Part shown: positions 2,223-7,197 of the stretch, one piece after another
Position numbering within the stretch: the stretch's first letter is position 1
How the letters are laid out: each line of letters opens with the position of its first letter
Source of the DNA: Ruminococcus sp.
Lineage (GTDB): Bacteria; Bacillota; Clostridia; Oscillospirales; Acutalibacteraceae
Assembly (NCBI GenBank): GCA_017411835.1
Contig: JAFQPG010000004.1
Coordinates: 1 to 64,000, forward strand
Direction of reading: 5' to 3'
DNA: 64,000 nt
Notes under the pieces: model-generated
What the model saw: only the letters and a program-made list of their open reading frames with translations
What the model was told of the DNA's origin: nothing
Database searches by the model: none
Translations under genes and position numbers: made by a program

Positions 2223-3218
2223 TTACATATATTGTTTTAACTTTGCAAAAAGTTCGTAGCGGTTTGTAACATCAAGCTTATTGTAAATAGATTTTGTGTG
2301 TTTTTTAATAGTGCTTTCGGTCACAAACAGCTTCTCTGCTATTTCTTTTCTCTGACAGTTTGTCAGCAGTTGTCTTAATACCTGCAGTTCTCTTTCTGTC
2401 AACAACGAGCTGACATCATCGCTTATACAGATATGCTCTATTTGTGTGTTTGAAAACAACGACGTCTTGTCAGCATCGGTGCTATAAACTCCGTGTGATT
2501 TAACCTCGTCTGTTTTACTTGCTTTCTGTGCAATAATCACGCTGCCACCTTCTGCTACAAGCCCATATTCTTGCAATATCCCATACAAAAGCAAAATGAA
2601 GACTTCGCTCATCACGTAGGAAATAGTAAGCAGTTCAAAGCCTCTTGGTAAAAACTGCTCCGCAAGCCAGATAACAATGCAACAAAGTACGGCACTAAGT
2701 AAAAATGATACGTGTAATGTAGACTTGATTTTCTTTTTTACTGTTGCATAAATGATAACAAAAAGCATCAAGCCAAAATATAAAAACAGGTAGACATAGT
2801 ACAAAAGGTGCAACGGACCATAGTCACGAATAAGCCTTGTTGTGCCATCAATAATTTCAATCGAAACGTGATTATAATATAAGGTCAGTATTCCAGGCGA
2901 CAGCGTAATAAGCAACACAGCAACGCTGACTGAGCTTAAAGCAATCATCGGCCACTTTTTATAATCTAAATTGCAAAGGTTGAGTATCATTTTCAAAAGT
3001 AAAAGTGGCAGAAAAACCTGCCCTAAGTATGTAATTCTGTTTGCATTCAGCGCAAAGCTGAGCGTAGGGGCTATTGACAGCAAATAATGTCCCAGATTAC
3101 ATACAAATACTGAGATGAACAAGAGTAGTAAACATATATTCTTTTTTCTATCAACTGCAAGACAAACGCCGATTAACACCAGCGATATAGCACAGATAAT
3201 TCCATAAGTAACAGACAT
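2223..3218 (-). CDS. Membrane-anchored LuxR-family transcriptional regulator
   Basis: This 331-residue protein has about seven hydrophobic segments in its first 220 residues, then a linker and a C-terminal LuxR/GerE helix-turn-helix (roughly 265-331). Recognisable pieces are LTERELQVLRQLL, KEIAEKLFVTESTIKKH and IYNKLDVTNRYEL. It probably senses a membrane or external signal and regulates DNA directly, without a separate kinase. The ATG at 3218 follows GGAGG by 7 bases; the codon before it (TTG) is less likely. It is transcribed divergently from the amylase gene, 300 bases away, so the amylase is a candidate target. This is inferred from position only. Confidence 0.85.
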   Translation of the reverse strand: MSVTYGIICAISLVLIGVCLAVDRKKNICLLLLFISVFVCNLGHYLLSIAPTLSFALNANRITYLGQVFLPLLLLKMILNLCNLDYKKWPMIALSSVSVAVLLITLSPGILTLYYNHVSIEIIDGTTRLIRDYGPLHLLYYVYLFLYFGLMLFVIIYATVKKKIKSTLHVSFLLSAVLCCIVIWLAEQFLPRGFELLTISYVMSEVFILLLYGILQEYGLVAEGGSVIIAQKASKTDEVKSHGVYSTDADKTSLFSNTQIEHICISDDVSSLLTERELQVLRQLLTNCQRKEIAEKLFVTESTIKKHTKSIYNKLDVTNRYELFAKLKQYM

Positions 3219-3284
3219 CAAATTTCCTCCGATATGTCTATGATGGTGCTAACTGAAGTCAAACTTTATTTTATATTAAATTAT

Positions 3285-3527: not shown

Positions 3528-5000
3528 ATGAAAAAATTTCTGGCTTTATTTCTTGCAATAATTATGGTTTTCTCGCTTGCTTGCTGTGCAAGCACAAACA
3601 ACTCAGAAAACGCTAAAAACGACTACACCTTATCTGCTGATGCAAAAGAAGGTAGCGTAATCGACGGGCTTATGACCGACATATACGGCTCTGACCCAAT
3701 ACTTAAAAAGACCACCGCTTCGTGGCTTGATACCTGCGTTTTATACGAGGTTAACGTCAGACAATTTTCGCAAGAAGGCACCTTCAAGGCATTTGAAAAA
3801 CATCTCAAAAGACTAAAGGATATGGGCATCAATACCTTATGGTTTATGCCTATTCACCCTATCAGTGAAACTAAAAGAAAAGGTACTTTAGGCTCTTATT
3901 ATGCAGTCAGCGATTACACCGCGGTAAACCCTGAATTCGGCACTACTCAAGATTTTCAGCACCTTGTAGATAAAGCTCACGATATGGGCTTTAAGGTTAT
4001 CATTGACTGGGTCGCAAACCACACCGGCTGGGACAACCCTTGGGTTAGCGAGCACGACGACTGGTTTATGCACGACGAGAGTGGAAACATCACCTCTCCA
4101 TACGACTGGACAGATACCGCCGAATTAAACTTTGATAACTTCGAAATGCGTGCAGAAATGATTAAAGCTATGCAGTACTGGGTTGAAGAAGTCGGTATTG
4201 ACGGTTTTCGATGTGACCACGCTATCGGTGTGCCTGCATCATTTTGGAATGCCGCAGTATATAAGCTCAAGTCTATCAACAGCGAAATTATGATGCTTGC
4301 TGAAGTTTCAGCCGCACAAAGCCTTACTCAATACGCCTTTGACTGCTGCTATAACGACGCGCTCTACGGACAGTCGCTTGCTGTAAAAGGAGGCGTTGCT
4401 ACTTCTACAATTGAGCAGGGTATGAAAATAAATGCAAACTATGTTGATGGAAGCTTCCCTATGAACTACCTCGACAACCACGATAAAAATTCGTACGAAG
4501 GCAGTATCGTTGACCGCTTCGGCGATACTTATGAACCACTTTTAGCGCTGTCGTTTTTATCTCCTGGCTTCCCGCTTATCTACACCTCTAACGAGCAGGG
4601 CTACGACCACGAAATACAGTTCTTTGAAAAGGACGCTGTCAAATGGGAAGACGATAAAAAGTACGAAGACTTTATTGCAAAGTTATCTCAAATCAAAGTC
4701 GATAATAAAGCTCTCGCTTCCACAAATACTGATTTACAGTTTAATGACGTAAGCAACACCCACATCTTCGCTTTTTCAAGAACTTTAGAGAACAATACAG
4801 TCATTTATATAAGCAATATGTATTTTGAAGGCATAGAAGATGTAACAGTCGACTTAGGCGTTGAAAACGCAAACTGCGTTATGCACTACGACGGTGAAAC
4901 AATAAACACAGAAGAGTTCTCTGTTACCGGTTCAGACTTTGAAAACAAAGACTACAAACCATACGAATTTTATATCTTAACAGTCGACAATACACAGTAA
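3528..5000 (+). CDS. Alpha-amylase family (GH13) lipoprotein
   Basis: This 490-residue glycoside hydrolase starts with a lipoprotein signal peptide whose lipobox cysteine lies at about residue 19-20 (SLACC). It should be anchored on the outer face of the membrane. The GH13 signature regions are all present: DWVANHTGWDNPW (region I), GFRCDHA with the nucleophile Asp230, MLAEV with the acid/base Glu259, and YLDNHD with Asp319. The C-terminal ~90 residues look like the beta-sandwich usually found after the barrel. It should cleave alpha-glucans or alpha-glucosides outside the cell; exact specificity is not readable. AAAGGAG lies about 9 bases before the ATG. It is monocistronic, ending in a terminator. 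Confidence 0.93.
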   Translation: MKKFLALFLAIIMVFSLACCASTNNSENAKNDYTLSADAKEGSVIDGLMTDIYGSDPILKKTTASWLDTCVLYEVNVRQFSQEGTFKAFEKHLKRLKDMGINTLWFMPIHPISETKRKGTLGSYYAVSDYTAVNPEFGTTQDFQHLVDKAHDMGFKVIIDWVANHTGWDNPWVSEHDDWFMHDESGNITSPYDWTDTAELNFDNFEMRAEMIKAMQYWVEEVGIDGFRCDHAIGVPASFWNAAVYKLKSINSEIMMLAEVSAAQSLTQYAFDCCYNDALYGQSLAVKGGVATSTIEQGMKINANYVDGSFPMNYLDNHDKNSYEGSIVDRFGDTYEPLLALSFLSPGFPLIYTSNEQGYDHEIQFFEKDAVKWEDDKKYEDFIAKLSQIKVDNKALASTNTDLQFNDVSNTHIFAFSRTLENNTVIYISNMYFEGIEDVTVDLGVENANCVMHYDGETINTEEFSVTGSDFENKDYKPYEFYILTVDNTQ

Positions 5001-5052: not shown

Positions 5053-5146
5053 CAAAATCAATAAATTTTTATTCATATTATAAATATACGTTTTTAATTT
5101 TGCGACTATATATATGAGGGAATAAATTTACAAAGGAGGGTATCAG

Positions 5147-5704
5147 GTGGAAGATAAAGAAATTATAAGCTTGTACTTTGAACGAAATGAACAAGCGATA
5201 GAACAAACCGATATAAAATATGGTTTGCTATGTCGCAAGATAGCAATGAATATCCTTTGCAAAATAGAAGATGCACAAGAGTGTGTAAACGACACCTATC
5301 TTGCTGCGTGGAACAGTATGCCACCCCAAAACCCAACCTCACTAAAAACCTTTTTGGGTCGAATAACACGTAACATTTCTATAAGCAAATTCAGAGCTAA
5401 TCACGCTAAGAAAAGATACAGCACAATGGAAACTATGCTTTCAGAGCTCGACGACTGCGTACCTGATACATTTGATGTAGAAAAACAAGTCGAAGAAGCT
5501 ATGCTGTCGCAGTACATAAGCGAGTGGCTTGACAGCCTAACTGACTTGGACCGTACACTTTTTGTAAGGCGCTACTGGTATGGCGACTCAAACAAAACCT
5601 TAGCACGAAAGTGTGGCTTCACCCAAAATAAAATGGCTTCATATATGTTCAAGCTTCGTGTTGCGCTGAAATCTTTTTTAGAGAAAGAGGGTGTGTCATT
5701 TTGA
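5147..5704 (+). CDS. ECF-type RNA polymerase sigma factor
   Basis: This 185-residue protein has a sigma region 2-like half (CRKIAMNILCKIEDAQECVNDTYLAAWN, of which the acidic ECVNDTYL core is characteristic) and a region 4-like half (SLTDLDRTLFVRRYW, then a helix-turn-helix ending KNKMASYMFKLR-like). The start is GTG at 5147, 6 bases after AAAGGAGGG. It overlaps the following serpin gene by four bases (TTGA), implying translational coupling. In known ECF systems such a partner gene usually encodes the anti-sigma factor. No promoter match was found immediately upstream, which is compatible with self-recognition by an ECF sigma factor. Confidence 0.9.
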   Translation: MEDKEIISLYFERNEQAIEQTDIKYGLLCRKIAMNILCKIEDAQECVNDTYLAAWNSMPPQNPTSLKTFLGRITRNISISKFRANHAKKRYSTMETMLSELDDCVPDTFDVEKQVEEAMLSQYISEWLDSLTDLDRTLFVRRYWYGDSNKTLARKCGFTQNKMASYMFKLRVALKSFLEKEGVSF

Positions 5705-7197
5705 AAAGCAAAAAGCTATATAACAGCATCACTAATATCAGAGAAGAAATTATAGAGCAAGCAGATAATTACCGCTTTAAAAAGCATAATAAATCCGCTT
5801 GGATCTCTTCACTTGTAGCGGCTGTGTTGGTGTTTGCTATCGTATCAGGCATTATAATTCATAACGGTTTTTTTGTGCCAACTACTAAACCAATACAGAC
5901 AAATAATATCACCGATACTGAGCCTGCAAAAAATATTAAAGAAACAGTAAGCTCAACTGAAGAAGATTTGCCTGAATACGCGATTGCTTGTCCGCAGTAT
6001 CCGATTATGGCTCAGTATCCAAGCAACGGCTCGCAGATTGAGTATGATGTATGGTTTGAAGATGTGCAAAAGCAACGACGCAATCTGTACTTTACAGACG
6101 ATTTAAACTACTTTTTTACACAAAGCACACAAGAGTTTTTATCAAGCAACGGAAATGAAAACTATGTATACTCACCTTTAAATGTGTATATGGCACTTGC
6201 CATGCTCGCTGAGATTACTGACGGCAACTCAAGACAGCAAATTTTAGATTTGCTTAATTGCGAGAATATTGCAACTTTGCGTAGGCAATCGTCAGATTTA
6301 TGGAACGCAAACTACCGCGACGATGGTGCATCCTCGTGCGTGCTCGCAAGCTCGCTGTGGCTTAACGAAAACATAAACTACGTACAGGATACTATGGATA
6401 TTCTGGCACAAAAATACTACGCTTCTTCTTATAGTGGCAAAATGGGAAGTAACGAGTTTAACGATGCTCTGCATCAATGGCTAAACGAGCAAACAGGAGA
6501 CCTCTTAAAAGAGCAGGCAGGTGATATCAATTTTGACCCTAGAACTATCATAGCTCTTGCAACAACCGTTTTGTTTGAATCAAACTGGACTGATAAATTT
6601 GATGAAGAAAAGAATACAGAAGATGTTTTTCACTCACCAAACGGCGATGTTGACTGCACGTATATGAATCAGTCAAATTGTCAAAACCTTTATTACGGAG
6701 ATGACTTCACCTCAATCTGTAAGTATATGGAGCTTGGCTCAATGTGGTTTATCCTGCCTGATGAAAATATATCTGCACAAGAGCTCCTTTACAACGAGCA
6801 GGTTATGGACTTTATCCTAAAAGGTGAGGAATGGGAAAATCAAAAGTCTCTTGAAGTAAATGAAACTATCCCTAAATTTGACGTTGTCTCGGATATTGAT
6901 TTATCGCAGGGACTTAAAAATATGGGAATTACCGATGTGTTTGACTCTACTATTTCTGACTTTAGCCCTACCACAACAGACGTAGATGAAATAAGCGTTA
7001 CAAAAGCCTCGCACAGTGCACGAGTAGTCATAGACGAAGAGGGCTGTGTTGCGACAGCATTTACTGTTATATTCGCCACAAGTGGCGCTAAACTAGCAGA
7101 AGAAGAAATCGACTTTATATTAAACAGACCGTTTATTTTTGTAATCAAAGGCGAAAGCGGACTACCGTTGTTTATCGGAATTGTAAACACTCCGTAA
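5701..7197 (+). CDS. Membrane-anchored serpin with anti-sigma-like N-terminus
   Basis: This 498-residue protein starts at a TTG overlapping the sigma-factor stop. Residues 1-35 (starting KSKKLYNSITNIREEIIEQA) resemble the cytoplasmic arm of anti-sigma proteins paired with ECF factors. One transmembrane helix follows at about 38-60, then a linker and a serpin domain from about 135 to the end. Serpin hallmarks are YVYSPLNVYMALAMLAE, the hinge region DEEGCVATAFTVIFAT and the C-terminal signature RPFIFVIK...LPLFIGIVNTP. Serpins trap serine or cysteine proteases by reactive-loop insertion, and gut clostridia encode such inhibitors. The hinge is less alanine-rich than ideal inhibitory serpins. Sensing an external protease and relaying this to the sigma factor is an attractive but untested idea. 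Confidence 0.9.
   Translation: MKSKKLYNSITNIREEIIEQADNYRFKKHNKSAWISSLVAAVLVFAIVSGIIIHNGFFVPTTKPIQTNNITDTEPAKNIKETVSSTEEDLPEYAIACPQYPIMAQYPSNGSQIEYDVWFEDVQKQRRNLYFTDDLNYFFTQSTQEFLSSNGNENYVYSPLNVYMALAMLAEITDGNSRQQILDLLNCENIATLRRQSSDLWNANYRDDGASSCVLASSLWLNENINYVQDTMDILAQKYYASSYSGKMGSNEFNDALHQWLNEQTGDLLKEQAGDINFDPRTIIALATTVLFESNWTDKFDEEKNTEDVFHSPNGDVDCTYMNQSNCQNLYYGDDFTSICKYMELGSMWFILPDENISAQELLYNEQVMDFILKGEEWENQKSLEVNETIPKFDVVSDIDLSQGLKNMGITDVFDSTISDFSPTTTDVDEISVTKASHSARVVIDEEGCVATAFTVIFATSGAKLAEEEIDFILNRPFIFVIKGESGLPLFIGIVNTP

Follow-up and report, generated by a model that had tools for sequence, protein, structure and literature searches.

A 64,000-nucleotide stretch of a Ruminococcus sp. assembly (GCA_017411835.1, contig JAFQPG010000004.1, positions 1 to 64,000; hereafter the window) carries a gene for an extracytoplasmic function (ECF) sigma factor that overlaps a gene for a membrane protein with a short N-terminal arm and an outer serpin domain. 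We favor, with modest confidence, a reading in which these two genes form a one-operon transmembrane protease sensor, whose arm would hold the sigma factor while the serpin would serve outside the cell as bait and inhibitor. Based on sequence comparisons, the predicted anatomy of the protein and the anti-sigma role of its arm are well supported, while the protease-sensing role is our best guess.

The sigma factor, the arm, and their coevolution

The first gene encodes an ECF sigma factor of about 20 kDa, with regions 2 and 4 only, which passes the models TIGR02937 (57.4 bits; cut-off 42.9) and Sigma70_r2 (30 bits; cut-off 24), and matches Sigma70_r4_2 under its cut-off (19.2 bits; cut-off 25.7). 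It starts with a GTG codon, with AAAGGAGGG ahead of the start. The overlap with the serpin gene, which a first-pass annotation made from the sequence had already pointed out, amounts to 4 nucleotides (5701-5704), the TTGA being common to the sigma stop and the serpin TTG start. That annotation also recognized the outer part as a serpin, and the PF00079 match bears this out as a complete domain (E value 1.4e-56; 192.8 bits, cut-off 27; profile positions 7-370 of 370); in the PDB, the closest sequences are those of conserpins, Serpin-ZX, and tengpin. The arm and membrane helix that it placed in the first ~60 residues are present, but they occupy about 54 residues, and an 84-residue stalk precedes the serpin, which begins at residue 139.

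The sigma factor belongs to a family that is sharply bounded, as judged from a search of 100 genomes of the same taxonomic family with an alignment of 12 sigma factors, in which 44 listed places scored at least 176 bits and the next scored 86 bits. At all 38 loci inspected, an arm-bearing open reading frame (ORF; identified by eye) follows the sigma gene, with very different outer parts. Counting only sigma ORFs over 150 bits and of nearly full length, 325 were collected, of which 274 are distinct. Directly downstream of 273 of these lies a match to the arm, the exception (L242) having no candidate start; this match is a lenient one, as the model was trained on the same loci and applied without any score threshold (scores as low as 16.2 bits, with 32.7 at the fifth percentile). 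The arm partner starts at the same base, giving the 4-nucleotide overlap with the sigma stop, in 235 of the 273. Serpin heads are found in 86 of the 273 arm partners, and in 19 of 203 pairs when the locus was fetched through the sigma; the number of serpins may be too low, because an end truncates 41 of the 273 partner ORFs. The serpin is very probably one interchangeable head on a constant arm.

Coevolution provides the second line of evidence for a contact between the two proteins. The strongest coupling examined is inter-protein, joining sigma residue 140 to arm residue 13, and stands far above all shuffles. Couplings learned on non-serpin pairs recognize serpin pairs, with none of 2000 permutations as good, and the couplings of the arm are mainly with sigma region 4 and more weakly with region 2. 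As the constant partner of the ECF family, and because of this strong inter-protein coevolution, the arm is taken as an anti-sigma domain, and it very probably makes its contact mainly on region 4; the resemblance to anti-sigma proteins proposed in the first-pass annotation thus gains support.

The predicted topology is also shared across the family. Among partners of at least 120 residues (a count that omits 8 of the 273), the arm leads into a membrane helix in 85 of 86 partners of serpin type and in 176 of 179 others, and lysine and arginine are in excess on the arm side of the helix in these same sets. By the established positive-inside rule, this excess predicts that the serpin lies outside the cell. 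The length ahead of the membrane helix has a median of 35 residues in serpin-type partners. Ahead of the serpin, 79 of the 86 linked proteins have a conserved YPxMxxYP segment (sought as YP), and unlinked members show it too, which marks it as a serpin feature rather than a signaling feature. After the helix, 59 of the 86 serpin-type partners and 65 of the 179 others have a signal-peptidase motif (AxA), a pattern too simple to support a claim.

Within the order, 213 of 394 genomes carry a sigma of the window's type at E ≤ 1e-45. The pair is nevertheless patchy, since three other searched genomes of the genus (G074, G185, and G509) have no match to the window sigma at that threshold. In some genomes of the order this sigma family is present in many copies, with a maximum of 16 at E ≤ 1e-50 (G569), and the many-copy genomes hold large parallel sets of pairs with different, mostly unnamed outer domains. 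The window's genome itself has one more sigma-arm pair belonging to this family, on contig C20 (sigma at 434-985), whose outer part matched no Pfam family at E ≤ 0.01. Two further arrangements were seen: at one locus (L105), the sigma and arm genes share a reading frame and are separated by a single stop, and another (L160) is a tandem of two pairs of sigma and serpin-headed anti-sigma factor.

Distribution of the serpin and its linkage to ECF genes

Serpins are present in 65 of 200 genomes of the same taxonomic family, and 84 distinct serpin genes were compared from 62 of these genomes; this set omits domains under 300 residues and duplicates (L056 and L084 being among those dropped), and the fragments G196:C96 and G055:C215. 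Nineteen of the 84 adjoin an ECF gene, with 7 of the unlinked genes having less than 600 nucleotides of upstream DNA. In a quick tree of 85 rows (L032 and L034 being the same gene), 13 of the 19 linked serpins, including that of the window, fall in one 19-row group (support 94) whose other 6 rows are unlinked, and these 13 share the same layout. Serpin and ECF genes are therefore paired more than by chance. Two loci outside the count appear to have decayed: L056, at the end of its contig, encodes a serpin with an arm but contains stops, and L084 is a serpin fragment adjoining a sigma fragment.

The remaining six linked serpins are placed elsewhere on the tree (L007, L013, L026; L002, L032; L040). 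Local alignments give 21-28% identity between the window sigma and those of L007, L026, L032, and L040, and the arms at these four loci look unlike the window's; at another locus (L127), a serpin of the window's clade sits on another ECF and arm. Given these unlike sigmas and arms, serpins meet ECF systems on several chassis. For 30 homologs of the L007 sigma, an ORF always comes next; by eye, most of these ORFs have a short arm and a hydrophobic segment, and only one is a serpin.

Fused arm and serpin proteins next to ECF genes, for which the first-pass annotation had suggested searching, are also present in a wider set. This comprised the best 80 of 534 named loci, obtained with an arm-bearing query that favors arm-bearing relatives, and ECF genes were recognized by a score of at least 30 bits against the sigma model built for the family. 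Of its 83 serpin ORFs, 56 have both arm and ECF gene and 25 have neither (4 of them at contig ends). Cultured relatives that share the window's layout include Flavonifractor sp. AGMB03687 (L131) and Cuneatibacter sp. NSJ-177 (L135). The other two are L127, with its different arm and ECF, and L110, for which an arm without an ECF gene was called; this arm is false, being a lipoprotein signal by eye. The arm-less relatives within the clade are mostly lipoproteins, with some having a plain membrane helix (by eye).

No conserved third gene follows the pair in the 56 arm-and-ECF loci, where ORFs were called mechanically; the next ORF is on the same strand in 24 of the 56, in clusters of at most 2. 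In the window, the first sizeable ORF 3' of the serpin gene is on the opposite strand, and the serpin is the sole one found in this 1.72-Mb genome of gut-type Clostridia. Just upstream of the sigma gene, on the same strand (3528-5000), is a gene for an alpha-amylase family protein with a lipoprotein-like N-terminus. Farther upstream, on the minus strand (2223-3221), a HisKA_7TM membrane region is fused to a LuxR-type DNA-binding domain, perhaps constituting a membrane one-component regulator.

Features of the sigma factor and serpin-headed protein, with window coordinates.
Feature	Position	Strand	Basis or remark
-10-like element TGCGACTATATATATGAG	5101..5118	+	family upstream motif
ECF sigma factor gene	5147..5704	+	185 aa; regions 2 and 4 only; sigma-model matches, family membership
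Serpin-headed anti-sigma factor gene (putative role)	5701..7197	+	498 aa; TTG start; PF00079 match
Cytoplasmic arm, residues 1-33 (MKSKKLYNSITNIREEIIEQAD...)	5701..5799	+	charged (by eye); constant partner and coevolution
Putative sigma-binding helix	about arm residues 6-20	+	coevolution
Transmembrane helix, about residues 34-54, positive side inside	5800..5862	+	hydropathy, K/R bias; limits by eye
Predicted extracellular stalk, residues 55-138	5863..6114	+	conserved YPxMxxYP at residues 100-107 (5998-6021)
Serpin domain, residues 139-498	6115..7194	+	PF00079, 1.4e-56
Reactive-center loop region, residues 446-478, EEGCVATAFTVIFATSGAKLAEEEIDFILNRPF	7036..7134	+	hinge compared with linked serpins

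Reactive loop, upstream motif, and alternative readings

The reactive loop was parsed in 79 of the 86 linked serpins and in 78 unlinked ones (the parse failed for 7 linked and 31 unlinked rows), by a rule that accepts only loops with G at P15 and with K or an acidic residue at P17; what is read at those two positions therefore proves nothing. When a serpin loop inserts, the residues entering the sheet are those with even P numbers. In the linked serpins, P12 is A in 75 of 79, P10 is A in 75, and P8 is T in 72, and the loop region is 33 residues long in 59 of 79; the sheet-entering residues are thus small or fitting, with P14 and, outside the even positions, P9 off the usual consensus. The hinge of inhibitory serpins is given as ExGTEAAAA (PMC8233489; this and the other papers are cited from excerpts). 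The window's own hinge, EEGCVATAF from P17 to P9, fits at P17, P16, P15, P12, and P10, and differs at P14 (C), P13 (V), P11 (T), and P9 (F). Because the hinge is partly canonical, protease inhibition or trapping by the serpin head is plausible.

Upstream of the family's sigma genes, a motif recurs that consists of TG[CT]AACC, 15-16 bases, and then CGTCTATATAGGTGAA. Its -10 part was called in 187 of 269 upstream regions and, under a strict threshold, the -35 in 58 of these 187, with 55 of the 58 at two neighboring spacings. The same procedure on shuffled sequences gave 91 and 121 sites with other consensuses; the evidence accordingly lies in the consistent pattern and spacing, the count by itself being weak. 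The motif suggests that the sigma factor may regulate itself. Just after the -10 part there is a conserved TATAGGTGAAAGG stretch, which may serve, in addition to the promoter, as a leader or start-site element, and GTGAAAGG occurs in 54 of the 269 upstream regions vs. 1.6 in shuffles.

In the proposed mechanism, the arm helix would dock on the ECF sigma factor, mainly on region 4, and keep it at the membrane, while the serpin on its stalk outside the cell would act as bait and inhibitor. A serine protease attacking the reactive loop would be trapped, or would at least cut the loop, and the resulting change in the serpin or stalk may expose the protein to stepwise site-1/site-2 intramembrane proteolysis, by which the arm would be destroyed and the sigma factor freed. 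The freed sigma would then transcribe at least its own operon, as the family-wide upstream motif suggests, giving more sensor and inhibitor, and one protein would both sense and neutralize its target, as RsiV does for lysozyme. The window's genome encodes M50 proteases (best match 1.5e-58) and signal peptidase I (two over the cut-off), which to our knowledge nearly all bacteria have. Because the comparison of genomes assigns the arm to the sigma factor, the sensing of outside proteases is the most likely role for the serpin head. A broader account, offered tentatively, is that the serpin has become a bacterial transmembrane receptor in which protease capture would drive the stressed-to-relaxed change, dismantle the anti-sigma factor, and let the ECF factor raise the inhibitor supply, with several independent recruitments and one clade switching between sensor-inhibitor and lipoprotein inhibitor.

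Several observations weigh against the protease-sensor reading. In a quick tree of the serpin clade (106 rows, with a long-branch warning), 18 changes of arm state are required, and well-supported branches force no fewer than 6 of these; together with the clade members that have neither arm nor ECF gene this indicates that the serpin has a use of its own. Across the class, none of 46 serpins is ECF-linked by three sigma models, in a sample of 50 (30 taken one per genome and 20 chosen by hand), 4 of which have too little upstream DNA. Among the top 25 couplings, only 3 are common to the non-serpin and serpin sets (chance alone would give 0.09), and the held-out model does not single out the window's own pair, placing 50-63% of other serpin arms above it. 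Unlike the usual hinge, that of the 79 linked serpins mostly has C or V at P14 (73 cases) and F or Y at P9 (75 cases). The window has no clear -35 (posterior about 2e-5), and a fixed promoter pattern is not enriched in its genome, with 87 matches vs. 189 for the reversed control, so that no regulon was found by this pattern. The first-pass annotation had tied the failure of its idea to two findings together, namely that no arm-sigma interaction is predicted and that the same serpin type occurs without an ECF neighbor. The second is indeed seen, in the 25 ORFs and L110 of the wider set and in 6 of the 19 tree rows; the first is contradicted by the coevolution of the family, with the window's own pair not singled out. 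As both were required, the idea is not refuted.

The same observations have to be weighed for other explanations of the linkage. The serpin could be the effector rather than the sensor, a surface-anchored inhibitor mounted on an anti-sigma arm, with the signal read by the stalk, the helix, or the site-1 protease, and the linkage mainly coupling inhibitor supply to its own sigma. The arm-less, mostly lipoprotein (by eye) members of the clade agree with this, as does the lack of a conserved third gene, which leaves the serpin as the main known product; the outer domain is, however, the varying part of the arm proteins, as expected for a sensing part, and serpins are attached to several unlike ECF and arm types, and we regard this explanation as unlikely but substantial. 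Alternatively, the serpin may be non-inhibitory, its loop being a cleavable bait or binding site whose cleavage or ligand signals with no covalent complex. The departures from the ExGTEAAAA hinge (PMC8233489) at P14 and P9, and the four differing positions in the window, would fit such a loop, as would the scarcity of consensus residues among linked serpins (P14 T and P9 A in 1 and 1 of 79, vs. 29 and 13 of the 78 parsed unlinked serpins). P12, P10, and P8 are nonetheless kept as in insertable loops, the 33-residue region is prevalent, and unlinked members of the clade share the C/V and F/Y residues (by eye), so these mark the clade and not signaling; a non-inhibitory serpin is improbable.

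That the two genes are neighbors by chance, with the N-terminal segment serving as a membrane anchor only and making no sigma contact, is very improbable indeed: the only point found in its favor is that the window's own pair is poorly discriminated, and against it stand the arm partner at 273 of 274 sigmas and the coevolution tests.

Relation to known signaling systems

The system nearest in logic to the proposed sensor is SigV-RsiV of Bacillus subtilis (ECF30), in which the lysozyme receptor RsiV binds and inhibits lysozyme and thereby senses it; signal peptidase and RasP are the proteases that cleave RsiV (PMC5014341, PMC6066255). Both combine an ECF sigma with a membrane anti-sigma factor, and the outer domain of RsiV binds, inhibits, and senses an enzyme, although sensing by the window protein is a proposal; they differ in that the outer domain is a serpin in the window and a lysozyme-binding fold in RsiV. 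The RsiV-type domain at and after the membrane helix, DUF4179 (PF13786), has no match in the window protein at E ≤ 1, and an arm protein of the family without a serpin (L215) comes near its cut-off (29.8 of 30.1 bits).

The domain of class I anti-sigma factors is about 70 residues long. These factors (RseA, RsiW, RskA, and ChrR) have a four-helix domain on sigma 4 and sigma 2, unlike the arm in the window of about 33 residues, and the median of 35 residues ahead of the helix is too short for four helices, so the window protein would not be class I. Class II (CnrY-like) factors have two short helices that wrap around sigma 4 and sigma 2. PMC7406223, as excerpted, likewise assigns class I a longer domain, and describes an anti-sigma type with a short helical arm whose first helix lies on sigma 4, which is like the window arm by description only. 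RsgI of Clostridium thermocellum and relatives is similarly an anti-sigma factor with an outer sensor domain, there carbohydrate-binding, but it works with another sigma type (SigI) and other sensors (PMC12484212). Gut and clostridial serpins share the fold; the proteases inhibited are neutrophil elastase and proteinase 3 for siropins and subtilisin-like proteases for Clotm-serpin 1 and PinA, and Clotm-3 is called a membrane protein (PMC6718151, PMC12484212). In the excerpts of these papers, no anti-sigma role is described for siropins, PinA, or Clotm-3. A literature search pairing serpin or serine protease inhibitor with anti-sigma, with most subscription papers outside its scope, returned no description of a serpin anti-sigma factor.

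An ECF sigma factor with a membrane anti-sigma sensor is thus a known kind of system, and the serpin sensor head is, as far as searched, unreported. If the proposed role is true, the pair would constitute a direct protease sensor with a testable trigger, in which a suicide inhibitor is reused as a receptor, and it would add to signaling in these bacteria a widespread ECF family with interchangeable outer heads.
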